Positions 39,730-55,196 of a stretch of DNA of 64,000 nt are shown piece by piece. A program made the translations under genes and the position numbers. How positions within the stretch are numbered: position 1 is the first letter of the stretch; each line of letters begins with the position of its first letter. This DNA is from Omphalotus guepiniiformis (taxonomy: Eukaryota; Basidiomycota; Agaricomycetes; Agaricales; Omphalotaceae). The notes beneath the pieces were generated by a model. It saw nothing but the letters and a program-made list of their open reading frames with translations. It was not told where the DNA came from and made no database searches. The DNA is taken from NCBI GenBank assembly GCA_028554645.1, contig JAQOOI010000079.1, positions 1,674,001-1,738,000 on the forward strand, given 5' to 3'.

Positions 39730-39734
39730 GGAAG
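39730..39734. repeat. LTR-element target-site duplication, left
   Basis: GGAAG directly precedes the 5' LTR and recurs directly after the 3' LTR at 52768-52772. Five bases is the usual size for Copia-type integration. Confidence 0.85.
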
Positions 39735-39959
39735 TGTTGGAATGTCAATGACAAGTCGAAGTGCTTGATACCCGAGCCTTAGACCTACTGCTTTATTTCC
39801 ATTTCCGCTTCATTCTTGCTTTATCCTTGCTTTATTCTTTACTTGCTTTGTCTGTAGTTATTATATATGTAGTTAGAATTGCGAATGAAATACCCTGCGC
39901 GTTTGCCAGGGTCTCGTGCTTAAATCCCGAGTAGCGCTGTTGAAACCGCTATTCTAACA
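39735..39959 (+). repeat. 5' LTR (225 bp)
   Basis: Begins TGTTGGAATG and ends TTCTAACA. Base-by-base reading finds no difference from the 3' LTR. It contains a TATATATG stretch that could serve as a core promoter. Confidence 0.93.
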
Positions 39960-40172
39960 CAAACGCGCTAGCAACCCCTGATCTCTGCTTTTCTTTTGCA
40001 TCGCTGCCATTCTCGTTTTCGAGTCTTACGTGTCGAAAAGCCCTCACGACGACGAGGCAAGAAGAAAAAGTCCTTGTTTACATAAGGCAGTTGAGCTTGC
40101 TGACCCCACGACGACGAGGTGCAAGTACTTACATCATTTTCCAATATCTACATACCTCTGCTGGTGTCCACC

Positions 40173-40313
40173 ATGTCCTCTGATACCGTGTCCTCTGTGT
40201 CTTTCTCTCGGCTTAATAATTCAAATTATCCATCTTGGGCACTACGGATGGAAGCTATACTGGTTCGGAAAGGACTTTGGGCCGAAATTGTGGAGATTTT
40301 GATAAGCGAGAAG
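40173..40313 (+). pseudogene. Gag, N-terminal part (split by the KDZ insertion)
   Basis: The first 47 codons of a Copia-type Gag. The frame has the family opening FSRLNNSNYPSWALRMEAIL (compare the LNGxNYxxWKxRMEALL pattern) and VRKGLWAEIV. It runs into the target duplication and, two codons into the inserted transposon, meets a TAG. The frame resumes at 51727 in the same phase. The downstream half is listed separately. Upstream ATGs exist, but this one gives the family-like start. Confidence 0.85.
40306..40313. repeat. KDZ target-site duplication, left (GCGAGAAG)
   Basis: An 8-bp sequence inside gag, repeated at 51719-51726. Eight bases is the duplication size known for Zisupton/KDZ elements. 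Deleting one copy plus the element leaves the gag frame continuous. Confidence 0.9.
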
Positions 40314-40331
40314 GAGCCGTAGCCGTAACTA

Positions 40332-40415
40332 TGATATATCAATAGAACTGTAAAAGCAAAGTAGGGCGTGATATATCAGCTACTGTCCTCTGAGGCATGG
40401 TCAGGTTATATATCA
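40332..40415 (+). repeat. left subterminal palindrome triplet of the KDZ element
   Basis: TGATATATCA at 40332-40341 and 40369-40378, and the one-base variant TTATATATCA at 40406-40415. The spacing is exactly 37 bp both times. The outermost copy starts 18 nt from the element end. The right end mirrors this layout. Likely transposase-binding sites (inference). Confidence 0.85.
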
Positions 40416-40438
40416 CGGCTCACCAGTCGGGGTTCGGT

Positions 40439-40477
40439 TAGGATAGCTCAGCTAGGATAGCTCACTAGGATAGCTCA
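40439..40477 (+). repeat. three short repeats TAGGATAGCTCA
   Basis: TAGGATAGCTCA occurs at 40439, 40453 and 40466, just inside the left palindromes. No counterpart with the same sequence was found at the right end. Confidence 0.8.
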
Positions 40478-40676
40478 GCATGCACGGGTTCAGTTTAGCA
40501 TTTAGCGTTCACGGGGATACCCCATCAATCATCTGCTGCTTCTTTTTCCGTTTGTTCCCAGACCTTGCGCAAATGATCGATTGTTTGTTCCTTCCTTCTT
40601 CCGGGCTTCTATTCTGGACCCTGGTTCTCGGAATTGGCTTGTTTTCCACATCATCGGCTCATGTTTTCATATGTCA

Positions 40677-40818
40677 TCACCATCCGGTCTGCCCACCTTA
40701 CCACCGCCCGCCGTCTGCGTCACCCTTTCCTCATCCACTCCGGTCCGCTTACCCGAAACCCTCTTCTGTACTCACCATCTGGTCCGCGATACCACCCTTC
40801 ACTCACCATCCGGTCCGC
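40677..40818 (+). repeat. four copies of a CACCATCCGGTCCGC-like motif
   Basis: Copies with one to three changes lie at about 40677, 40734, 40772 and 40803 in the CT-rich left region of the KDZ element. A role is unknown. Confidence 0.7.
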
Positions 40819-41065
40819 AACCACCTCCATTCATTTTCCCTCCCCAAGTCTCGTCCTAGTTGTCTTCACCCCATGTACAGATTTCTTTCTCCTATGTACC
40901 CGTTTTTTTTTCTTCCTTTTTTTTCTTCTTTTTTTAAAGAGCTTCACGCTGAGTCAAATTTACCAAGACACTACATTAAATTGAACTGTACGGTATGAAT
41001 GTAACAAGATATATCAAAATACAGATGCAACAAAAAATGTGTTTCTAATACATGAGCGACACATA

Positions 41066-43165
41066 CTAAATCTTGGCACGTTTGGCCTTAGACGTCTCAC
41101 CATTTTCACCAGCTCCATCTCGCCCACGCTTTCCTGCGGCCTTCTTTGATTGTCCTTCAGAGCTCTCACCGACTTTATCCATTTCCCTGCGCTCAGCAAT
41201 GGTCATAGGTTCTCTTACTGTGGGTCTAACACGGCGTCGTCCCATTGATTGAGTAGAATTGGGATGGACATTCTCCTTTTCAGTGGGAGGGGCAAGTTTT
41301 TGGGTGACGGCAGAAGACTTTTTGGTAACAAGAGCTGGGGTCAACACGTCAACGTCCGGCACGTCGGAGGTAACAGAAGCCGAAGCAGTAGAAGGAAGGA
41401 CTGGAGTGTCAACAGGATTACGGAGCAACGGATCAATGTTGCTTTCGTCGAACGTGACGCTAGCACAAGAATCGGTAGCAGTAGCATCCGATGCAGGAGA
41501 GGGGTTGGGTGTAACAGCAGTCTGAAAAGGTTCAGCAGAAGGAGTCAGGCTGGCGCCTGGAGTTGACGCGGTATCGGAAGTCACTACCGAGGTCAGAGTA
41601 GTATTAGGAGTCACCACGAGAGGAGTCAACGCGGGCTCAGGAGTTACCGGGGTCAACGAGGGAGCGGGAGTTGTGGTGACAGACGAAGTGAGCTCAAGGT
41701 CAGGAGTAGAAGTCGGCACAGGAGGAGCGTCTAGATCAGAAATGGGATGCAGTTGATTGAGAGCAGGTGAGTTTAGCACAGGCTCGGACACCGGAGCAAG
41801 GGATTCACAGAGAGTAGAAGGGGGGACGAGAGATAGTGCATCGTTTGAATCCGATGGCTCATTGACGCTCATGCTCATTAACAAATCTTCTTCTCGAAGC
41901 GCGCGCAGCCTCTGTATTTCCGGAGCTATTACATCACGTTTAGATTTAGTTCCGCAGGAATAGTCCTTTCACGTACGATAGACCTTTGCCAAAAAATCCT
42001 TGAATGGCTTGACATGCGCTGCCTTGAAATCAGAAGTCGCTTTGCCATAATTCTTGCCATTGAATGTCTTGCCAGCATGCCAGCTACGAGAGAGAGTTCA
42101 TATGCAGTACAAATAATACATGAGACAAAAGGGCTTACGAGATAGTTCCGAGACGGCCTTTATTTGCAGGATCTGGGCCTCCGCCAATCAGTGTGAAATT
42201 CCAGCCTGTTTGAGCAGTGACCTCGTCAAAAAAGGCCTTGAGAACCGCAGGTAGCTGCTCGATGGCCCTTATGATGAGATATGAATGTTAATATAAGTAG
42301 ACCGTGATGATAAATGAACAAAGCCACATACTCAAGATATTGGGCAGACGTTGGGCCCTGTGCAAGGTCGACTTCCTCCGACTTCATTTGCTTCCGTCCC
42401 TTCACTTCTTCCTTCGCTTTCTCGATAGCGTCCTCCACCTCCTTCTTGATCTCATCGGTCTCCTGAGTGTACATCTCGCGAGTACACGCAAGGATAATCT
42501 TGAGAGTCTCAGCATGTGAGAGCTTCACCGGACCAGGCAGCTCCCTTGTAGTAGCTACTTCCAGACTCGATCTGTCTAGACCCAGCGCCTCAAGGCCAGC
42601 TTCACCAGGCATGGCTTGATCACCCTCGGAAGAAGTGTCCATAGCCTCCCGAGAACCCTTTCTGTGTATCTCAGCCTTCCGGGCAGCAATCTGAGCTTCT
42701 ACTACAGGCTTCACCCGAGTCTCATAGTATCGAGTCGAATATTCCTCATGGGGTTGTCGGACACGCGTTGGTTTCGCCTGCATCATGATCGACTTGAAGA
42801 TAGGAGCAGCTCGCGCCATCGAAGTTGGTGTTTGCCGTGATTTCTTATCAACATGAGATCGAAACCACGTTTTCAGCTGCTGTACCATAAGGTTAGCATC
42901 TATTAGCATACGTTCCAGCTTGCGGACTACTCACTGCTGTGCGATTCGTAATCTTATCGTCCAAGACTTGACGTACAGCGTCCTCGGTGGAATGTGTAGA
43001 GCGTTGAGCATCAGAAAGCGACTCAGGCCACTTCTCAAAGAATTTGCCCATGACTCTTGGCCAAAACTGATCAAGTCGAGAGTTGCCTTTTGCCTGAATG
43101 TAGCCCGCTGTCCAAGTGTGAAGGAAAGCCTTCTGTTCAGGCGAAGTCCAACCGGCCGGAGCCAT
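41066..43165 (-). CDS. KDZ companion gene A, hypothetical
   Basis: A multi-exon minus-strand gene starting at ATG 43165. The N-terminal block (GWTSPEQKAFLHTWTAGYIQ, FWPRVMGKFFEKWPE) is of a kind I recall from Agaricomycete hypothetical proteins. It is followed by LKTWFRSHVDKKSRQTPTS, a charged coiled-coil-like stretch (DEIKKEVEDAIEKAKEEVKG), a block with GWNFTLIGGGPDPANKGRLG and KPFKDFLAKVY, a long Thr/Pro/Ser-rich low-complexity tract, and a basic C-terminus with KKAAGKRGRDG and KAKRAKI, probably a nuclear-localisation signal. Introns are GT-AG; the one near 41930-41980 joins in frame with an AG acceptor two bases after the first AG. Function unknown; DNA-binding is a guess from the Trp-spaced N-terminus. 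Confidence 0.75.
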
Positions 43166-43325
43166 CTGAAAAGATTTTAGACTTTACATCAGTGGCCGTA
43201 CACTGAGTCACATACCACTACAGCGAGAAAAGTCAAAAGTCTAATAGTAAAACGGCAGGTAAACGGAACGGGACATCGACTGCGAAATGTGCCGAAATGC
43301 CGACACGAGAAACTGTACAGTACGC

Positions 43326-43332
43326 TATAAAA
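43326..43332 (+). promoter_or_regulatory. TATA box of companion gene B
   Basis: TATAAAA lies 55 nt before ATG 43381. Confidence 0.65.
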
Positions 43333-43380
43333 GCCCCGCAATCAATTTTCTAAAATCAGTTCATTATCCCCGTTTTCGTC

Positions 43381-43987
43381 ATGTCCCAGCAGCTTCAACT
43401 GACACTCACTCCGGAGCAGGCTGCTTTCATCCAGCAGTATATTCGTACATCTGGTACGTTTGTTCTTCCTGATATCTCGACCAACACTTAAATAAGTCAC
43501 TACAGCGAGTACTAGCCAAACCACCCCCTCTCTGAATGCGACCCCTCCACCCGGGCTGACGGCCCCGAACTTCAACAACACCACTAGCTCCAGTGCTCCC
43601 GTGGACAGTATTGTTGTTTGCAGTGCATGCCACCAGCCTGTATCTAAACGCAATGCGGAGACTATGGATGGTGAGGAACTACCCCCTGCGGAGATGCGCT
43701 GGTATACGGTGTGGGTAGGTCTTCGAGTAGGTTGGGTCAGAGGAAAGTAGGTATTTTCTTGCATCGTCCATCCTTACATTGTATTTTAACATTTTTCTTG
43801 CAGAACGAATGCTCTTCGACTCGTTGAGGGCATCCCGAACAACCGCTGGCGATACTATCCCACTGAGGCCGAGGCTCGTCAGGCGTATCTTGACCACCAC
43901 GCTCGTAACGAGACGCTGGTGGTCAATTTCGACCCCATGGGTCACTATCCAGCCTTAGGACCTGGTCTCGGCTGGCTGCGCCCTTAA
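43381..43987 (+). CDS. KDZ companion gene B, RNase H1 N-terminal/viroplasmin-like
   Basis: Three exons joined in frame encode about 165 residues. The N-terminus (MSQQLQLTLTPEQAAFIQQY) is followed by a Thr/Pro/Asn-rich linker and a CSAC-H segment. The C-terminal block WYTVWVGLRVGWVRGKTNAL, LVEGIPNNRWRYYPTEAEAR matches the pattern of the RNase H1 N-terminal domain (YxVxxGxxxGxxxxW...V.G.x.A.xKxFxxxxEA), a small fold that binds RNA-DNA hybrids and double-stranded RNA and also occurs in caulimovirus viroplasmin. There is no RNase H catalytic domain. A TATA box lies 55 nt upstream. The domain match is by pattern only. A role in handling nucleic acid during transposition is inference. Confidence 0.72.
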
Positions 43988-44037
43988 GATGTATGTTTGT
44001 TGGTGTACACTGCCTCCTTTCCCATTCGTGGTACAAT

Positions 44038-44157
44038 CGTTACTTCTCCCTCTTTTCATGTCGTGCTCGCTGTCTCGCTGTCTCCCCCACATCCTCGATC
44101 GTTACTTTAACCTCTTTTCATGTCGTGCTCGCTGTCTCGCTGTCTCCCCCACATCAT
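44038..44157 (+). repeat. tandem duplication, 62-bp period
   Basis: Two head-to-tail units beginning CGTTACTT at 44038 and 44100 and containing TCGTGCTCGCTGTCTCGCTG lie in the 3' flank of gene B. Confidence 0.85.
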
Positions 44158-44325
44158 TGTTGTATCGTAATCATGTTCTTGTCCGGTTGTTACACCAGAA
44201 CATTCTCTTGCTATCATTGTCGCTATCATGTTGTTATGTTGCGTCTTAAAATGTATCTACGAATTGATTTTAGTGCATTGTTTCAAATAAATGTGTGTTC
44301 ACAGATGCATAGATTTCAATTACAA

Positions 44326-45066
44326 CTACGACAACGATAAGGACAGCTCTTGGAAAGAATATCGACGAGCTTCGAAGTTCTTCTTAACATGAGACCATCC
44401 GCCTAAAAGTTCATCGCACACCACCTCCTCGAACCAACCGATGACACGCGAGATGGAGCTTGAGATAGACCGTACTCGATCGTATTCAGGACCGGCTCCA
44501 AAATGCTGAAGCACCTCACCACCATATCGTGTGCTACGACCTCGAAGTTTATCGAGTCGGTCTACAATGTCTTCCAAATCTGTCGTTGTTCGTTTGGGGC
44601 CCCTTTCAAGCTTGAGAAAATTTACGACGGTCGTTTCAAGATATTTGTGAGGAGAAGTGCTGACGAAGTTGTCAAAGTAAATTTTGAGATGTTCTGCGCG
44701 TTCCACATAGTAGAAACGACTATTCTTCCTCTTCTTTTCCCTGTAATATATTCAATGTTTATTCTCATGAAGCTTGGATAAGAATGAAAACCTACTGATC
44801 GCTTCCAGCTTGAGGGGCAAGTGAAAGTGGGCCCAATGGATCAGGACATCGAACAGTGTTCACCGGATGGCTCTTGCGATATTCTTTCCGTCGGCGTTCC
44901 CGAATGCCATCTAGACCATCTTTGTTTCTATATGTTGTACAAAGTCAGCCGACGGTTTGTAAGTTGTGCTCATATGACATTTGTACCTGTTATAGTAACG
45001 TCTGTCCTTTGCTCTCTTTGCTTCCAGCCTCTCCTCTGGTGTGCTATACAGTCGTGGACGCCCCAT
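44326..45066 (-). CDS. KDZ companion gene C, hypothetical basic protein
   Basis: Three exons on the minus strand. Exon 1 from ATG 45066 reads MGRPRLYSTPEERLEAKRAK and DRRYYNR, exon 2 continues DGIRERRRKEYRKSHPVNT, and exon 3 begins EKKRKNSRFYYVERAEHLKI and ends in a long alpha-helical region with an LSLSLS terminus. The N-terminus is strongly basic, with a GRPR core resembling an AT-hook. The last 126 codons form a mainly helical domain with a Leu-heptad-like LEDIVDRLDKLRGRSTRYG. I do not know the family. Its location inside the element and intact splice sites suggest a conserved cargo gene, possibly DNA-binding. Confidence 0.65.
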
Positions 45067-45477
45067 AGAGCCTCAATAGACTTGAGAGAAAGAGACGGAA
45101 CAAATAGTGCAAGTAAAGGTCGGAAGGAAGTAGTCGGGCAAAGGTATGTAGTTCAAGGTACTTGGGAAACCGTTAAGCAACTTCTGGCTGATACAGTGAT
45201 TTCGTCCGACTTTTACTCAACTCATTATTTCCTGATTGTATTAGTCCCTTTTGCCTTCAAGAAACTCCTATATCTTGTATTTCTATTTGGTCGACCGTCT
45301 GTAGTATGCAAAATGTGGATCGCACATCCAGGTAATGTCCCCTCACATCGTACTGAGACATGTTCGACACTTATATTGTTCATATTACATCTCAGCTTCG
45401 TATTTCTATCTCTTCTCGCATCTGTCCCATCTACTATTGCCTCAATCCAAGTATTTCCTAAGTGTGAAGCTCGCAAC

Positions 45478-45652
45478 TGTTGTAACTCTGTCACAGATCT
45501 AAGTGGAAATTCCCGTTACTTAGTCTATAACACATGCCGTAACCCTATGGACAGATAGCTCAGTGGTAGAGCATGTCTCCGGGTTAGACTATGTCCCGGG
45601 TTCAATCCCCGGTCCGTCCCTTTTCCTACTCCGAGGTCACAGTGGCTTAACA
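45478..45652 (+). repeat. tandem 175-bp repeat, unit 1
   Basis: Matches 45772-45946 base for base as far as I can read; the unit carries the tRNA-like sequence. The units are 294 bp apart. Confidence 0.9.
45549..45620 (+). tRNA. tRNA-like sequence, unit 1
   Basis: A 72-nt cloverleaf-like sequence. The acceptor strands are GGACAGA and TCCGTCC (one A-C mismatch), the D-arm is GCTC...GAGC, and the T-arm is CCGGG TTCAATC CCCGG. Box A (TAGCTCAGTGG) and box B (GGTTCAATCCC) are good. The anticodon arm is poor: TGTCT/AGACT with a loop CCGGGTT lacking U33, so no anticodon can be named with confidence (GGG by position). It is more likely a Pol III-type tRNA-derived sequence than a working tRNA. Confidence 0.55.
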
Positions 45653-45771
45653 TGGTAGCAGCAAACATGTGCCAACATAACCGGTATTCAACCCGAGTTG
45701 GCGGAGATTCAGGAGCATAAAGCGTGACATTCATGGACCAAAGTGGTCACGGGTATCCACTTATGGGGGTG

Positions 45772-45946
45772 TGTTGTAACTCTGTCACAGATCTAAGTGG
45801 AAATTCCCGTTACTTAGTCTATAACACATGCCGTAACCCTATGGACAGATAGCTCAGTGGTAGAGCATGTCTCCGGGTTAGACTATGTCCCGGGTTCAAT
45901 CCCCGGTCCGTCCCTTTTCCTACTCCGAGGTCACAGTGGCTTAACA
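45772..45946 (+). repeat. tandem 175-bp repeat, unit 2
   Basis: Second unit; see 45478-45652. It ends just before the upstream region of gene D. Confidence 0.9.
45843..45914 (+). tRNA. tRNA-like sequence, unit 2
   Basis: Same sequence as 45549-45620, including the weak anticodon arm. Confidence 0.55.
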
Positions 45947-46116
45947 GCAACCATGCCTGAAGTACAAACTGTGCACTGTGCCATGCTCATTATAGGTGAG
46001 TACTACTTATTGCATAGGCAAGAAATTACTAATTGATTGATCATCGTGTCCCAGCTAGAAGCCTCTTCCAGTTTTTGCCCTGCCTTCTTTTCGACCGTCA
46101 TCTAGTCCCCACCTTG

Positions 46117-47175
46117 ATGTCCCGGAAACGCTCTCCAACATCCACCACATCCATGGTAAGACCCGTTTACGAAACTCCCCAAAGACTCTTTCTTATCTTT
46201 TCTGTCTAGATACGTCGCAGTAAGCGTATACAGAGTCTACATGCGCAAGTAGCTCAGCACGCCGTACGTGTACCTGCCTTTTTTTTACTTCATCTATGCA
46301 CACACCTTTTTTTGTGTCCAGCTTCGTCGTAGCTCCCAGGTCCAATTTTTACGCAACCCTTCCCCTCAAGAGCCTATTGTTCAGACAAGGGCACGATTCA
46401 ATACCCATTCTCGACGTTCTCGTATCACACACTTCAACACTGCTTGCAAGAAGCACACCACGCCACCACCTTCAGCGCCCCCCAACTCACCAAATAGGCT
46501 TTCTTCCGACACCTCACCCCCACCCAACCCCCAATCGTCCTGCTCCTCGACGCTCGAACGTCTTTGCTTCCAGTCATGTGTTGCGCAGGGCCCTTCCCAA
46601 GTGAGCGCGTCCCCAGCGACACTGGTTCACCGACGTCTTCCTCCTCAGCCGCGTGTTGTGGCAGCATATCATGTTGATTGGGTAGACTTCAAATTTCCCC
46701 AAAAGTTCGAACTTGCTGTCCGTCACGGCGGGCTCTCGTCGCTCATTCCTGAAATCTATGATTCCTTCATACAGCAGTTCCCCAAAGAAGCCGTGATACC
46801 CACCGGAGACGAAGAAATCGATAAACGTTTAGTCTATCTACATAAGGAGGTATCTATTTTTTTGGACTCTCTAGCTTTTCTTGGCTAACAGATATCCAGA
46901 TGCTCCGTCGTGCGCTCTACAAACGCTATCTCCCTCGCATGCAGACGTATGGCTGGGATATTAATTACATCCACGATGCCTCCCTCCCTATACCACAGTT
47001 GGAATACGAAACTTCTGTCTACGAAATGCTTATCAAGCCTCGTCAAGAATGGCCCTCACCTGCCCCTTCTGACACGCCCCCCACGGAGCTCGTTCTTTTT
47101 GACGACAAGGCATTCAAAGAGAACGAGGACGGTTACATACAGAGTCTTAGAGAAGGTTACATGCAGAGTCCTTGA
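46117..47175 (+). CDS. KDZ companion gene D, hypothetical
   Basis: Four exons, all with GT-AG introns and in-frame joins: MSRKRSPTSTTSM, then IRRSKRIQSLHAQVAQHA, then a large exon and a last exon from MLRRALYKRYLPRMQTYGWD. After a Ser/Pro-rich, basic N-terminal part the folded-looking region contains VDWVDFKFPQKFELAVRHGG, GDEEIDKRLVYLHKE and YGWDINYIHDASLPIPQLEY. It ends in an acidic, Pro-rich tail. About 300 residues. The family is not recognised. It is codirectional with the transposase and ends about 135 nt before its start, so it may share its regulation. It could be a second transposition factor. Confidence 0.72.
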
Positions 47176-47254
47176 TCTCGTTGGTAATTAGGCCCACAAT
47201 TTTGTAAATGCAGCATCTATATACCTCATCTCATGAAGCTATTATTTTTCCTGC

Positions 47255-47262
47255 TATATAAA
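47255..47262 (+). promoter_or_regulatory. TATA box of the KDZ transposase gene
   Basis: TATATAAA lies 55 nt before ATG 47310, the same distance as the TATA box of companion gene B. Confidence 0.6.
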
Positions 47263-47309
47263 TCACTGGTTAGAGGACAGAACCTTCAATCCCCTTGACT
47301 CTGTGTACA

Positions 47310-50300
47310 ATGCCTCTTAGGTCTAAGAAACTGAAGTACTCTGAAATGGACATGTATTCGTCAGACTCCGAGGAAGAGACGGTCTTTTCCTCCCAAATGG
47401 AGATACATCGCCACACGGAGTTTTCGAGCGCAGACACGCGATCAACAGTTTCCTTTCTCCAGGCTGAAGTGCCCATCGACATCTCTCAACCCTCTACCAG
47501 CTCTGGCTGGCTCTTACCATCAGACCCTCCGACAGCATACTTGAACGAGACCTCAATGGATTCTGAAACCTACAATGATGACAGCGACAGCGACGACGGC
47601 GATTTGATTCAGGCACAATCTGACAGGTTTCTGGACCCGAACTACGTACAGAGGACGGACCTCATTGACGAAGAATGTGAGACTCATATTGTGCAGATTG
47701 AGCCACCACGATCTCGATATCAAGCGGTATGTGTGTACTGTTTTGTCCCAGAACTCAAATCTCAGCAGCATTCATTCAAGGATGATCCTTTGAGAATGTG
47801 GATGGACAATAAAGACTCATTTCTTGCTGAACTTCTTTGCCTTGAGGGACCCGGGCGGGAGGCGACACATTGTTCTGCATGCCAGCTTCTATTTCCGAAT
47901 CCAATCGAACTGGAGACCATTGACGTTGTCCAATGCATTTCGTGTCTAGACAACTCGTTACTATGCCGAGAATGCATCGTTCAGCGTCACACTACTAGTC
48001 CGTTTCATCGGTTTCGGGTACGCTCAATTTTTCTGACCTATGATCTACTTTCACCTAAAACATCACAGAGTTGGAACGGGAAGTTTTTCAGCAATATTAC
48101 TTTGAATGATCTCGGATATCGGTTGCAATTGGGGCACTCACCTCACCAGAGATGCCTTAGTCCTTCTAGCGCTGCAAACTTCGTAATAGTCGACGTCAAT
48201 GGAATTTACGAAACATCTTTGGACTTCTGTGGTTGCCGTGGTATTCCTGATCGAGTCACTCAGCTCCTACGATTTAGATTGTTTCCGGCTACAGTGGTGA
48301 ATCCGCAAACGGCAGTGACATTTCGCTTCCTCGAAACTTTTCAGATGCTTAATTTCATGTCAAAGATATCTGTATTCGAGTTTTATCAGACCGTTGTCCG
48401 ACTTACTGACAATACTGGCACGGTGACTGTTCCTGTAAGTCGTTTTATCTGTTCTCGGGGCAGACTACTAACTTGCAATTTTAGGATCGCTACAAGGAGG
48501 CTAGGCGGACCGTTCGGGAGTGGCGTCATCTTCGAATGCTCAAGCGCGCTGGTCGTGGACATGCTGATGGTGGTCCTGCGGCAACTAGGCCGGGAGAGTG
48601 TGCCGTCTTGTGCCCGGCGTGTCCATACCCCAAGATCAATCTCCCAGAGAATTATTGTTTGCAGCCTGATAGGTTTGTTTGACATTTCACTGAGCCGTGC
48701 ACATGGATCTCAAATCAGTTCATAGTTGGAAATACGCCATGTTTCTTGGCATCGATGCAAACTTTCAACTGAAGCGGGCTGATGTTTCGAGTGAACAGAA
48801 GGATCCTGGTCTCAATCAAGGCTACGCATACTACGTGAATCCTACCCAGTTCAAGGACTATCTCAACGAGTTTGGAGTCAAGGTGGCCGATGACAAGAGT
48901 TCGTGCAATGATCATAATGCCATTAAACAAGCGTCGATGAGAGGTGGAAAAGGGACTGCGTCTACAGGGATTGGTGCAGTCGATTGCGCACGTCACGATA
49001 TGAAAAGGCCGCTGTCAGTTGGTGATCTGCAAAAGGGTGAGAGGTAAGTACAAGTGTCAAGAATTTCCAGGATGATCGGAGTTGACGTACATGCGAACGG
49101 TCAAACGTTCATTAACATTCACAGATATGTCAACATGGATTATTTTTTCTTGTCTAGTGTCGGTCAGAACACCCCAATGTCGCTGGTTGTGTCATATGAT
49201 ATAGGCTGCCAGTGGTCTCGTAATTTGTTCAAGCGTATTGAAGAATATCCTCCATTGCTTCGTCCTCATGAAAATCAAAAATTGCGATTTCTTGTACCGA
49301 AATTTCATCTTGCTGCTCATATTCCACGTTGTCAAGCCTATTACTCTTTCAATTACACTCAGCATGTGGGGAGAACAGATGGAGAAGCTCCGGAACGAGG
49401 CTGGGCTGCCGCCAATGCCATGTGTACCAGTATCCGTGAGATGGGTCCAGGTTCGTATCGCGACACCCTGGATGACATCTTCGGTGATTACAATTACCGA
49501 AAGCGATTGTTACTCCGTAGGTTTGGTTCCGCTGCCCATTGTGAATCCATAACTCACTGAAATTTCTATACACCTCAGCAACTCAAATGCTGAGGAGACT
49601 CGAGGATGCTATAGAGGACAAACTCACGCACGCACACGTTCTTGAGCTCCTCAATCACGCCTTGCCATCAGAGAATATTGCAACCTGGGAGGCAGCTGTC
49701 AGTGCCTGGGAAGCAGATCCAAGCAAGCCGAATCCATTCTTTTCCACATCAGCATGTAAGTTCTAATCCGGCTAAGCTAATGAGAATTCGAATTGATACC
49801 ATAGATACAGCCGCGTCTTTCAATACTGTTCGCCTCGAGCTGGCAGAGGAGGATGCTAAGAGACATCAGGAGGAGGAGAAACTACATACAGTAACTCCGA
49901 GTAGTATGATCTTGAAGGGTCTCGCTTTGGAGGAGGAGCAGTAAGAAAATTGAATGTTTTATCCCACCGTATTCCGCTCATATTTTATTTAGAGCTGAAC
50001 TTGAGCAAGAGGAGAAGAACATAGCAAAGAAGCTACATGCGACTCCGCTTCAGAAGTCGAAGGTAATCGAGACAGGGACCCGCCTGCAGCGAAAAATTGA
50101 CGCATGGACTGCTATACAAGAAGTATACATGCCTCGTGTGGGATATCTCCGGTCTCAGGCTGATGCAGAAGGCGCAAAACAGGTTCCCGCCTCATCATTC
50201 TCGCTCATGCTTCCCTCCTCCTGCAATTCAACTATCAAAGTCAACCGCAATCTCTTGCGATACGAGTTTCGATTGCGACTTGCTCGTGCTAATGATATTC

Positions 50301-51116
50301 TCGCAGAACTAAGGCGACATCTTTTGTTGAGAAACTCCCTATGGCAATACAAAATGCGATTCATTCGGGGACAGGATCAGTTGACAAGGTCTCAAACTGT
50401 CATTAATGGCGTAATTGATAAGGTGACGACAGATACAGCCCGGTATCGACGGAATTACTCGGCTCTCGAGAAGTTGGCAACCGTTCTTGGGGAAGCTGCA
50501 TGGAAAAGCCACCTGAAGGTGCTTGCAGATGAGGATGTAGTTGCATTCAAGGATGCACCAGAGTCAGAAGGAAAGCGTGTATTGTCTTGGATTTGGTTGG
50601 TTGAAGGGGTCAGCAACGATGAGAATGCAGTGAACGAAGGTATGCTTTTTAATTCATTGTTGTATTGTCACTTAGTTGACAAGGGATGTCAATGATTTCC
50701 GAACAGTGCTGTCCATCGAATGGTGCAAGGCACGCGCTCGGGCTTCTCGCTACGCAGAGGAAGTCACACTACTGGAAGAAGAGATGCGGCGCGTGAAAGC
50801 ATTCTATCAATGGCAAATCCAAGTCTGGCAGGCTCGTGCCAAATATCATACTGTCCCTAACAACCATTTCCCACTTGACATGCAGTCGGAATCTTTCCGG
50901 CATGGGGCAATCGCTTATGCTCTGCGCCAGGAAAACATCACATATCGCATGCTGAATCATTGCAAGAATATCTGGAAGGATGTTGGATTGCTCATAGCGG
51001 ACCCTTTGATGTATTTCACGGGGCTTAGCTCTAGGAGAAAGAAGCCAGGGGCGCGAGAGAAAAGGGCTGCTGTTGTGGTGTCAAACATCCTGAAACGTGC
51101 TCACGCAGTCGAGTAG
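47310..51116 (+). CDS. KDZ transposase with CxC2 zinc cluster
   Basis: Ten exons joined by GT-AG introns sum to 3,288 nt, an exact multiple of three, giving 1,095 residues. After an acidic leader (SSDSEEETVFSS) comes the CxC2-type cysteine cluster found with KDZ transposases: HCSACQ, QCISC, CRECIVQRH and PFHRFR, near residues 170-215. The RNase H-fold transposase core has its acidic residues in GIDANFQLKRAD (Asp near residue 413), SYDIGCQWSRN (near 532) and DGEAPERGWAAANA (Glu near 595). The C-terminal 400 residues are mostly helical and charged. No stop or frameshift is present, so it may be active. The alternative in-frame Met 15 nt upstream lacks support. KDZ transposons move by cut and paste and are abundant in mushroom genomes. 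Confidence 0.93.
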
Positions 51117-51492
51117 AAATTGAGTAGAATGTTTTGGTATGCATGGACAGTAGCACGGGTATATTTTGTCTGTATTATAGTATAATATACACAGAGACGC
51201 GAAAGCAAAAGTGTGGAGGACGAAGGGGGCATACGGGCCGTGCATCCGGGCCAAAACATGATGTCATAAAAAGACAAACATATGTACCAAATATCTGCCA
51301 AGGGAAGGAGCTTGGGCGCTCAGCGCTCAGGCCTCAGGCCCAGGGCTAAACGCAAAGAAAAACGGAACACTATACTGTAGATGAAAGTCAAGAAAATGGA
51401 AGCGACGTCAAGACTACACAGATCCGTGCCTGATTCGTCAAACCCCGTCAACTCGCATTCGCATTCCCTCTGAATTGAACCAGCTACTCATG

Positions 51493-51563
51493 CAGACCAA
51501 CCGCTACATACATACAGACCAACCGCTACAGTATACGCACCAACCATTCACCCCAACCGCTAT
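51493..51563 (+). repeat. repeats of an ACCAACCGCTA motif near the right KDZ end
   Basis: GACCAACCGCTACA appears twice, with shorter variants (ACCAACC, CCAACCGCTAT) following, just inside the right subterminal palindromes. Confidence 0.75.
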
Positions 51564-51623
51564 GAACTCGTCTGCCCACCCCCCTTCTAGATGACTGTAA
51601 TCCTCAGTAACTTTGGCCCAGCG

Positions 51624-51701
51624 TGATATATAACCTTTCATGCTAACCAGTGTGGCTGATATATCAGCCTTCGCTTGGTGGATGCAGCTGGTGATATATC
51701 A
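51624..51701 (-). repeat. right subterminal palindrome triplet of the KDZ element
   Basis: TGATATATAA at 51624-51633, TGATATATCA at 51657-51666 and 51692-51701, spaced 33 and 35 bp. Read from the element end inward, the order (two perfect, then the variant TTATATATCA preceded by AGG) mirrors the left end. The outermost copy ends 17 nt from the element end. Confidence 0.85.
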
Positions 51702-51718
51702 TTCCCACAGCCTCTGTT

Positions 51719-51726
51719 GCGAGAAG
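51719..51726. repeat. KDZ target-site duplication, right (GCGAGAAG)
   Basis: Exact copy of 40306-40313. Confidence 0.9.
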
Positions 51727-52449
51727 AATGCTGATGGAAGTCTGAAGGATCAGGTGAAGATTGATGCCGAGATGACATCAAAGATGGCTGCACGAGATGC
51801 GACGAAGATGGCTGAGGCTAGAGCTGAGATGATTTTGAGGGTTGATGATGGGCAGTTGGCTCATATGACTTCGAAGGACCCATTGATGATATGGAGAGAC
51901 TTGGAGAGGGTTCACCGGGCTGCAGGTTTTGCAACCAGTCTTGCTTTGCGCCGACAACTATTGACTGCAAAGAAGTTGGATGAGGAGAGCATGGAGGCTT
52001 ACATTGGGCGGATTCAGGCATTGTCATTGAGGTTGAAGCATGCTGATGTTGATGTTACGGACCAGGACAAGATCCTTGCACTTACGATGGGTCTTCCTTT
52101 CACTTACAATGCTGTCATTGTTAATTTTGACGCAACCCCTCCCGAGCAACTTACACTCGATCGTGTCATCACTCGCCTTCTCAATGAGGAAACCCGACAA
52201 AACTCTTGTTCCGAAAATTTCCCGTCCCCTAAATCAGACACCGCTGATGAGGCACTAGTTGCTGCATTGGTCTCACGCTCTCCTAGCGACATCACCTGCT
52301 ATTTTTGTGACAAGAAAGGTCACTACAAATCTGAGTGCCCTGCTAGACTTGCGTGGGAAAAGTCACTGAAGAAGAAAAAGGACGCCGTGGCCGCTGCAGT
52401 CACTATGGAGGATTCAGATTCAGACTGGGAGGCTGGAGGTGCCTTTTAG
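51727..52449 (+). pseudogene. Gag, C-terminal part with zinc knuckle
   Basis: Continues the frame of 40173-40313 without loss or gain of bases once the KDZ element and one duplication copy are removed, giving a 287-residue Gag. It has the Copia/UBN2-type Gag core (ARAEMILRVDDGQL, IWRDLERVHRAAGFATSLAL, MEAYIGRIQALSLRLK, ILALTMGLPFTYNAVIVNFD) and a CCHC knuckle CYFCDKKGHYKSEC, followed by an acidic C-terminus and TAG. The frame upstream of 51719 belongs to the inserted element. No pol follows; only about 90 nt remain before the 3' LTR. Confidence 0.88.
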
Positions 52450-52542
52450 GTTTGCAGGGGTGCATTTTTATTTTTTCATAAATTTCTTGTTTTATATTTC
52501 TGTTTTTCCAGCTGTAGATCTGCACTACGACTTGCAGGGGTG

Positions 52543-52767
52543 TGTTGGAATGTCAATGACAAGTCGAAGTGCTTGATACCCGAGCCTTAGACCTACTGCT
52601 TTATTTCCATTTCCGCTTCATTCTTGCTTTATCCTTGCTTTATTCTTTACTTGCTTTGTCTGTAGTTATTATATATGTAGTTAGAATTGCGAATGAAATA
52701 CCCTGCGCGTTTGCCAGGGTCTCGTGCTTAAATCCCGAGTAGCGCTGTTGAAACCGCTATTCTAACA
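52543..52767 (+). repeat. 3' LTR (225 bp)
   Basis: No difference from 39735-39959 seen by eye. It lies about 560 bp upstream of the G3BP-like start codon, in that gene's upstream region. Confidence 0.93.
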
Positions 52768-52772
52768 GGAAG
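52768..52772. repeat. LTR-element target-site duplication, right
   Basis: GGAAG, matching 39730-39734. Confidence 0.85.
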
Positions 52773-53325
52773 TTCGGGTGAACATATGTAAGAGCTATCA
52801 CACTACATATATTTCTATAATACCCTCAAAGAGCCTCAAAACATCGTCGAAGACCCCAAAGGCCATTAAAAAGGCGGCGTGAGAAACCATTGACGCGTAA
52901 CACATAATTTTTTCTTTGCTTGAATTTGTTTTGCTGTTCCCTTTAACTGGGCCCGTCTGACTCTCTTGTGGCAATTCCATTCAACGCTACCCTCTCTAGC
53001 TCTTAGATTTTCCTCTCTCTCTCCTTCGTCATTCGCACTCTAACGGGGCTTCAACGTTCGACTTTCACTTCGCTTCGTTGTCTTGAACTTGTTGTAATTT
53101 CTGTGAGTACGCCCAAAAGAAACTAGAGGCGAAAATTCTACAAAAAATGGGATTCAAAGAAAGTGAAACTGACTGACTGATTTGATTTTTGTTATATTTC
53201 TCTACACCCTCCTCGGCTTGCTGCTGCTGCTGCTTTTTTGGGTTTTACCCTTCACTTTCAATTGGTGGCGAATACGAATACGAATTACACAAAAAAAAAC
53301 CCAAACGGACTCGGGGGTGTTTAGG

Positions 53326-53525
53326 ATGGCTTCTTCTACTACAAACGGTACCTCTCACCAACACCGGAAAGTCGTTCCCTCTGAAGTGGGCTGGCAATTC
53401 GTACCTCAGTACTACAATTTCGTGAACAAGGAACCTGAGAGGTTGCATTGTTTTTATAACAAGTCTTCGACGTTTGTTCATGGGACCGAAGGTGAAGATG
53501 GGGAGATTTGTCATGGTCAACAGGT

Positions 53526-53556
<31 letters not shown>

Positions 53557-55196
53557 TCCCCCTTCTTGACCTCTTGACATGAAACTAAAACGTTTTTTTA
53601 ACACAGGAAATTCACGCACGAATAACCTCTCTTGGGTTTCACGACTGTAAAATTTTCATACACTCCGTCGACGCTCAATCTTCCGCCGACGGAGGGATCA
53701 TTATCCAAGTCATAGGCGAAATGTCCAACGATTCAGGTCCATGGAGGAAATTCGTTCAAACGTTCTTCTTGGCTGAACAACCGAATGGGTATTTTGTTCT
53801 TAATGATATTTTTAGGTTTTTGAAGGAAGATACGGTGGAGAGTGATGTTGGTGAGGGTGAAACTGTTGATGAGGTCGTTGTGGACTCGGACATTGGGGTT
53901 GAGGGGCAGCAGCAACAGCAACAGGTGGAAATTCAACAACAACAACAACATCAGAGAGAATCAACGCCTTCTCCTGATACACCCCCACCTGCAGAGCTAG
54001 CTGTTGTCGTTGATCCTACTGCTGCCCCAGTACCTGAACCACCAACGACAGTATCTGATATCTCAGAACCTACCCCTCCAATCACTGCCGCTGCGGTCGT
54101 GGAACCTGAAGAACCTGCGCCTGCTACTGCTCCCGCAGTTGTTGTTGTTGATGTTGCCCCACAGCAAAATGGTATTCATCTAGGTGAAGCGGGTGCTGTT
54201 GCGGTAGATAAACCAGCTACACCTGTCCCCGCTGCTGAACCAGTAGCGCCTACTCCTCCACCTGTAGCTGCACCTCCACTTCCTTCTGCCCCTCCCGTCA
54301 TCACACCTGCTCCCGCTCCCGCTGCTGCACCTTCCACTCCAGCCCCGGCCCCAGCAGCAGCAGCCCCAGCTCCTGCACCCGCTGCCGCCGCTCCAGCACC
54401 CGCTGTTGCTGCAGCAGCGTCTACACCAAAAACATGGGCGAACCTCGCCGCTACGAATTCTAAAAAATGGGGGAGCGCAGTCGCTCAGGAATCAAGAGGG
54501 TCTTCTGAGAATGTACCTAGTTCGCCTATTCATGCTCATGCTAGTGGGAGTGGAGCTCAGACACCTGTTAAAGGTGGTCCTGGTTCTGGTGGTGTTGGTG
54601 GTGTTGGTTCGGGTGGTAATGCTACTCCTGGTAGGAGAACGCCTCATCCTGCGTATGTTGCTGCTATGAGTGTTACGACTCCTCAGTGTTTTATCAAGAG
54701 TGGGTTTTCGTTTGTGTTTATTGTTTGGTTGGTTGGTGAAAAGGGTTACTGATGATTTTGTGTAATGAAAAAACAGAGTGTAACAGAAAACGTAACCCAA
54801 CAAGCTCTCCAAACCGCGTTATCTAAATTCGGACAAGTAAAAAGTTTGGAGATTGTTAGGTTTAAAGCGTGTGCGTTTGCAGAGTTTAGTATGATTGAAT
54901 CTGCGAAGAGAGCGATTGTTGCTTCGCTTTCTGTGCAAGCTGGAGGTGAGGGTGGGTTGAAGGTTGATTTGGGGAATGGGGATAGTGCGAGGATTGTTGT
55001 TGAGACTAAGAAGGAGAGGGGGGAGAGGGGTGAGAGGGGGGAGAGGAATGTTGGGAGGAGTAGAGGTGGAGGTGGAGGTGGTGGGGGGGCTGGAGGGGAA
55101 GGTGGGAGAGGTGGGTCGAGTAGTGGGTCGGTTGATGGACGTGGGTCTGGGTTTAGAGGTGGGAGAGGTGGGGGGAGGGGAAGAGGTGGGAAGTAA
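53326..55196 (+). CDS. G3BP-like NTF2-RRM-RGG RNA-binding protein
   Basis: The domain order is that of G3BP/Rasputin and yeast Bre5: NTF2-like domain, low-complexity middle, RRM, RGG tail. The NTF2-like part runs VGWQFVPQYYNFVNKEPERL, RLHCFYNKSSTFVHG, then after an intron EIHARITSLGFHDCKIFIHS, VDAQSSADGGIIIQVIGEM, WRKFVQTFFLAEQPNGYFVL and NDIFRFL. The middle has poly-Gln and a long Pro/Ala-rich tract. The RRM has CFIK (RNP2-like), VTQQALQTALSKFGQVKSLE and CAFAEFSM (RNP1-like). The C-terminus is glycine-rich with RGG repeats. Relatives act in stress granules and deubiquitinase regulation. A 5' UTR intron ending TTTAG just before ATG 53326 is likely. The exact donor of the last intron (near 54700-54773) is uncertain. 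Confidence 0.88.

Follow-up and report, generated by a model that had tools for sequence, protein, structure and literature searches.

The window, by which we mean the whole 64-kb stretch of DNA analysed, carries a gag-only LTR retroelement whose gag reading frame is split by an 11,406-bp element assigned to the KDZ DNA transposons, within which a TRIM is nested. The features of this nest are given below in coordinates of the window, with gene models that are computational.

39735-52767, plus strand: outer gag-only LTR retroelement, about 1.62 kb without its insert, with identical 225-bp LTRs; matches uninterrupted copies
39730-39734: left copy of GGAAG, the 5-bp target duplication (TSD) of the gag-only LTR element
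52768-52772: right copy of GGAAG
39735-39959, plus strand: 5' LTR of the gag-only element
52543-52767, plus strand: 3' LTR of the gag-only element, 225/225 identical to the 5' LTR
40173-40313, plus strand: gag, first part, 47 codons
51727-52449, plus strand: remainder of gag, with Retrotran_gag_2 (Pfam PF14223, 8.4e-22) and a CCHC knuckle (PF00098, 1.4e-4)
40314-51719, plus strand: KDZ DNA transposon, 11,406 bp, with ends defined from empty sites and from other copies
40307-40313: left copy of CGAGAAG, the 7-bp target duplication of the KDZ transposon
51720-51726: right copy of CGAGAAG
40314-40341, plus strand: left 28-bp imperfect TIR, matching the right end at 18 of 28 bases
51692-51719, minus strand: right 28-bp imperfect TIR
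40332-40415, plus strand: left array of three palindromes (element positions 19-28, 56-65 and 93-102)
51624-51701, minus strand: right array of three palindromes (positions 19-28, 54-63 and 87-96 from the right end)
41066-43165, minus strand: predicted gene A, encoding 624 aa in 5 exons; matches no Pfam family above cut-off and is recurrent upstream of KDZ genes
43381-43987, plus strand: predicted gene B, encoding 165 aa in 3 exons; a weak match resembling Cauli_VI falls below cut-off
44326-45066, minus strand: predicted gene C, encoding 208 aa in 3 exons; its N-terminus is basic and it matches no Pfam family
46640-47177, plus strand: probable gene E, a partial model from reading frames; 46898-47039 is conserved in the C17 copy
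47310-51116, plus strand: predicted gene D, encoding a KDZ transposase of 1,100 aa in 10 exons without an internal stop; contains CxC2 and the complete KDZ domain
45478-45946, plus strand: nested TRIM, 469 bp, with two identical 175-bp LTRs, a tRNA-like sequence in each, and the 5-bp TSD GCAAC

The outer element is a non-autonomous gag-only LTR element, with LTRs, gag and a 5-bp TSD and without pol. In the TR-GAG elements of plants, gag likewise lies between LTRs and pol is absent. The outer element differs from these in its copia-type gag, and its host genome, which we take for that of a mushroom-type fungus, abounds in KDZ and CxC2. A gene whose NTF2 domain is spread over two frames (PF02136; window 52767-54752) has the outer element about 0.5 kb upstream, and its promoter may be affected by the 13-kb nest.

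When the flanks were joined in silico without the insert, they formed a 1,620-bp LTR-gag-LTR element. We then compared this with the genome assembly (G000; 42.5 Mb in 80 contigs), where all counts are lower bounds. A query across the left junction found at least six places, the window included, and the other five matches all end exactly at base 40313. The insertion site is unoccupied in each of the five other gag copies returned by the search. One of these, L004, aligns gap-free to the joined flanks at 99.75% identity over 1,620 bp, and for L003 the identity is 99.3% over 1,625 columns, with one gap; the most distant of the five (L006) still shares 86% identity. Own 5-bp TSDs were read at three of the uninterrupted copies. 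Including the LTRs, the window copy minus its insert and L002-L004 measure 1.60-1.62 kb, and five further single LTR matches to the element were found.

These results uphold the central proposal of the preliminary description, a clean KDZ insertion with exact ends into a recently inserted gag-only LTR element, through both the empty sites, whose search it had suggested, and the recurrence of the ends in other copies. Its arithmetic for the gag frame after excision, 287 continuous codons, was correct, and the same length is found in three of the five empty copies (L002-L004; 286 codons in L005 and 285 in L006). The LTRs that it had judged alike by eye are identical at every position. As both the gag family and the KDZ families are multicopy, an assembly chimera or ectopic recombination might be invoked in place of transposition. 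However, precise empty sites, a target duplication and identical ends at unrelated loci are not expected from a misjoin, and we consider this explanation extremely improbable.

At the left and right junctions of the transposon, GCGAGAAG is found at 40306-40313 and again at 51719-51726. Viewed alone, the window therefore shows eight identical bases and had been described as carrying an 8-bp duplication, a length with precedent in the 8-bp TSDs of Zisupton and Dileera (PMC12730594). The coordinates of the repeated bases were correct; their division between target and transposon was not. The right end CTCTGTTG is present in all three copies having a right end (the window, C76 and C17), with G after CTCTGTT in each, and the left end GAG in all four copies having a left end (the window, C15, C17 and C18). 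Other copies, checked for differing end points, thus have common ends (right in two further copies, left in three). The C17 copy has GCTGGTA on both flanks, where 7 of 7 bases match and the eighth differs. The C76 copy is inserted in a Gypsy element (by our own reading, a chromodomain-Gypsy coding region). Its target, ATCCCAC, is preceded by A, not G, in 8 of 8 uninterrupted Gypsy copies read; for this right-flank search 40 of 283 candidates were scored, C76 itself among them, and 60 bases were read in 8 of the 39 others.

As G is absent before the C76 target in the empty Gypsy copies, the G at 51719 is the last base of the transposon, which gives a TSD of 7 bp and an element spanning 40314-51719. 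The eighth-base mismatch at C17 and the A in all eight empty Gypsy targets led us to reject the 8-bp duplication, and a true duplication of GCGAGAAG by the same insertion is very unlikely; we read the repeat as the 7-bp TSD CGAGAAG plus a coincidental G. The 7-bp length is supported by three junctions, of which that of C76 is visible on one side only, its left end being missing. Neither this correction nor the nested element at 45478-45946 affects the base count between the gag halves or the gag frame. For C15 and C18, in 20 kb each, the flanking bases were not repeated beside an element-like right end (the C15 flank had one chance-like recurrence within this distance, the C18 flank none). An 8-bp repeat at a single locus can thus equal a 7-bp TSD plus a chance base.

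Of the 18 matching bases in the 28-bp TIRs, 10 fall in a palindrome, and once the G at 51719 is counted in, the first palindrome occupies positions 19-28 from both ends. The sequence TGATATATCA occurs four times in the 64-kb window, always in the two transposon ends, versus 0.06 occurrences expected. Allowing one mismatch reveals three TGATATATCA-type palindromes per end, spaced 33-37 bp apart, and the third is TTATATATCA at both ends. At this stringency (≤1 mismatch) the whole window contains 14 such sites, 6 of them inside the end arrays.

The same architecture was sought across the genome. In its 42.5 Mb, 8 sites carry two TGATRYATCA motifs separated by 20-40 bp, and the reversed control gave 0. 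Seven of these sites are at ends of the window's KDZ family. The eighth, at C61, has similar palindromes, with an end that could not be aligned. The first two palindromes are recognisable in 4/4 left ends. A left-end pattern with up to 2 mismatches matched the four known left ends and nothing else, with 0 in the control. The corresponding right-end pattern returned 12 rows, comprising the 3 known ends as exact matches and 9 weaker ones (control 6). These palindromes are probably binding sites for the transposase. In a search of literature other than the founding KDZ paper and supplementary files, we met neither the palindrome triplets nor gene A in the role of a KDZ partner, and we make no claim of priority.

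The predicted transposase, gene D, combines a KDZ domain (PF18758; 2.5e-65) covering profile positions 1-217 of 217 with a cysteine cluster for which CxC2 gave the best match (1.8e-38). On the basis of this domain and cluster, the window element is a member of the KDZ superfamily. All predicted introns of gene D are GT-AG, and predicted genes A (minus strand), B (plus strand) and C (minus strand) are likewise open. Comparison with C17, a diverged relative that is about 73% identical and has both ends, revealed more synonymous than non-synonymous differences in gene A (about 70% and 29%, respectively), gene B (77% and 27%), gene C (74% and 23%) and gene D (76% and 17%). Some of these alignments span introns and two stops were counted in gene D, such that the non-synonymous values may be overestimates. 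As synonymous sites are saturated in genes B and D, no ratio is given for these two. The excess of synonymous differences points to purifying selection on genes A-D.

Gene A appears to be a recurrent companion of KDZ genes. It matched 9 loci (18 rows of the genome search). At 8 of these the nearest KDZ gene lies on the opposite strand no more than 25 kb away, with A upstream, and at 6 of the 9 it is within 7 kb. At the ninth locus, C43, the nearest KDZ gene is 65 kb off and A is not upstream. When the window and C17 are set aside, the upstream and opposite arrangement holds in 6 of 7 loci, for which the probability by chance is roughly 5e-7 on the assumption of independent loci; this figure overstates the significance, because the gene A loci at C63, C79 and C78 have identical match scores and are apparently copies of one another. 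By comparison, matches to gene C were confined to the window (C78), C76 and C17, apart from a short one at C20. A single-sequence model of the first exon of gene A (77 aa, pLDDT 74.6) has three helices. Against the PDB it gave nothing at E ≤ 0.001 and nine matches at E ≤ 10 (best 5.3), so that a Myb/SANT-like role for gene A remains a guess. Within the element, a 62-bp unit is also present in almost two tandem copies (window 44036-44155).

The TRIM at 45478-45946 is missing from the C76 sister copy and has since inserted into the KDZ element. ARAGORN (bacterial code) predicted tRNA-Pro(GGG) in each of its LTRs, and Rfam scored 47.8 bits in both. Nine LTR matches in the genome are accounted for by four full copies, the window element among them, and a solo LTR. 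5-bp TSDs were also read at the three other full copies and the solo LTR. Helenus TRIMs, known from Agaricomycetes, are described in PMC10886601 as having a tRNA-like sequence in their LTRs and, in fungi, 5-bp TSDs. The nested TRIM shares both features and fits a Helenus-type assignment by that description.

The closest relative of the window element is a sister copy at C76:707832-715193 (L013, L014), with 99.6% identity over 5,773 bp and 99.4% over 1,595 bp more. At C15 and C18 only left ends were found, and the two end searches returned no other full-length close copy. Over 7,361 aligned bases, C76 and the window differ at 29, plus three one-base indels and the TRIM. All 29 differences are transitions, 26 of them at CpG. 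In 22, T/A is the state in C76 (21 at a CpG of the window copy), and in the other 7 it is the state in the window (5 at a CpG of C76). Deamination of methylated CpG would be expected to leave such a pattern, and would have been heavier in C76. The sister copy is also damaged in other ways: its left third is absent, gene C contains a stop, and gene D, compared with the window, has a one-base gap.

The LTR element that hosts the KDZ insertion predates it and itself has 0 LTR differences in 225 bp. Nesting in an element with identical LTRs, together with the near-identity of C76, makes recent movement of the KDZ element well supported, although LTR identity could also reflect gene conversion instead of youth. 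The preliminary description had gone further and suggested an active transposase. This recency and the open 1,100-aa frame make the suggestion reasonable, and damage to the nearest sister weighs against it; present-day activity is likely but unproven.

A related reading, compatible with the demonstrated insertion, is that the element is now dead or is moved by the transposase of another KDZ family. In its favour are the 98 KDZ domain matches of the genome, grouped into 55 loci, several nearly identical, and the damaged C76 sister. Set against these are the openness of the transposase model over 1,100 aa, the conservation of genes A-D versus C17, and the restriction of the paired palindrome motif to 8 genome sites, 7 of them in the window's KDZ family. 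We regard this reading as unlikely, with some chance of being right. Among 30 KDZ loci compared with one another, several groups are mutually >99% identical, suggesting other recent KDZ bursts in the genome; the same comparison of 30 loci yielded no clear ends for the other KDZ families.

Among published KDZ systems, Kyakuja-1_LB and Kyakuja-2_LB of Laccaria bicolor have 7-bp TSDs, carry a TET/JBP gene and end in CA..TG with no TIRs (PMC12730594). Of Kojima's subgroup marks in that paper, the window element shares the 7-bp TSD and the 3' TG, but it starts with GA (GA..TG), and it may carry imperfect TIRs, as 18 of 28 terminal bases match, 10 of them in the palindrome. Its scanned proteins, which include gene E in part, contain no TET/JBP domain. 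From Zisupton and Dileera it differs by a TSD of 7 bp, not 8. KDZ1-KDZ3 of Cryptococcus neoformans are of a similar size class (9-11 kb) and also of KDZ type; according to PMC12810828 their mobility was shown, their TIRs are 139-241 bp, they carry CxC1, and their TSDs are 8 bp in KDZ1 and 4-8 bp in KDZ2 and KDZ3. In contrast, the window element has a 28-bp imperfect TIR, CxC2 as its best cluster and a 7-bp TSD, and its mobility is inferred from sequence. Pleurotus ostreatus KDZ transposons have intact KDZ genes behind a CxC2 region (PMC7641404, in excerpts that give neither KDZ ends nor a TSD), the order also predicted for gene D, and TIR motifs of Marasmius oreades KDZ elements are reported in a supplementary figure (cited in PMC8290104). 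The earlier remark that KDZ ends are rarely certain was overstated, since ends with TSDs have already been published for Cryptococcus (PMC12810828) and for TET-bearing Kyakuja and Dileera (PMC12730594).

Altogether, we are highly confident that the locus represents a single insertion of a multi-gene KDZ transposon into gag of a young gag-only LTR element. This confidence extends to the insertion and its ends, to the TSD and the palindromes, and to the openness of the transposase model and the conservation of genes A-D. The transposon inserted once in the gag frame and duplicated CGAGAAG. The gene D protein, with its KDZ core behind a CxC2 zinc cluster, would probably recognise the triple TGATATATCA-type palindromes at each end and make cuts, staggered by 7 bp, at the 28-bp imperfect terminal repeats. 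Movement would be by cut-and-paste, and genes A-C may have accessory roles in transposition.

KDZ transposition is already known, and KDZ transposons are abundant in some mushrooms and seldom defined to the base. The ends and gene set of the window element are unusually well defined: a single locus yields its ends to the base, the corrected TSD, a set of conserved genes and candidate sites for transposase binding, so that an excision assay could be designed directly. More tentatively, and at rather less than even chances, KDZ elements like this one could work as multi-protein systems that retain at least one obligate partner of the transposase, gene A, transcribed divergently from a position upstream of it, and probably two or three more. 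The complex would assemble at each end on three evenly spaced TGATATATCA-type palindromes and make cuts staggered by 7 bp. If true, this would set such elements apart as a KDZ subgroup with an end architecture of its own.
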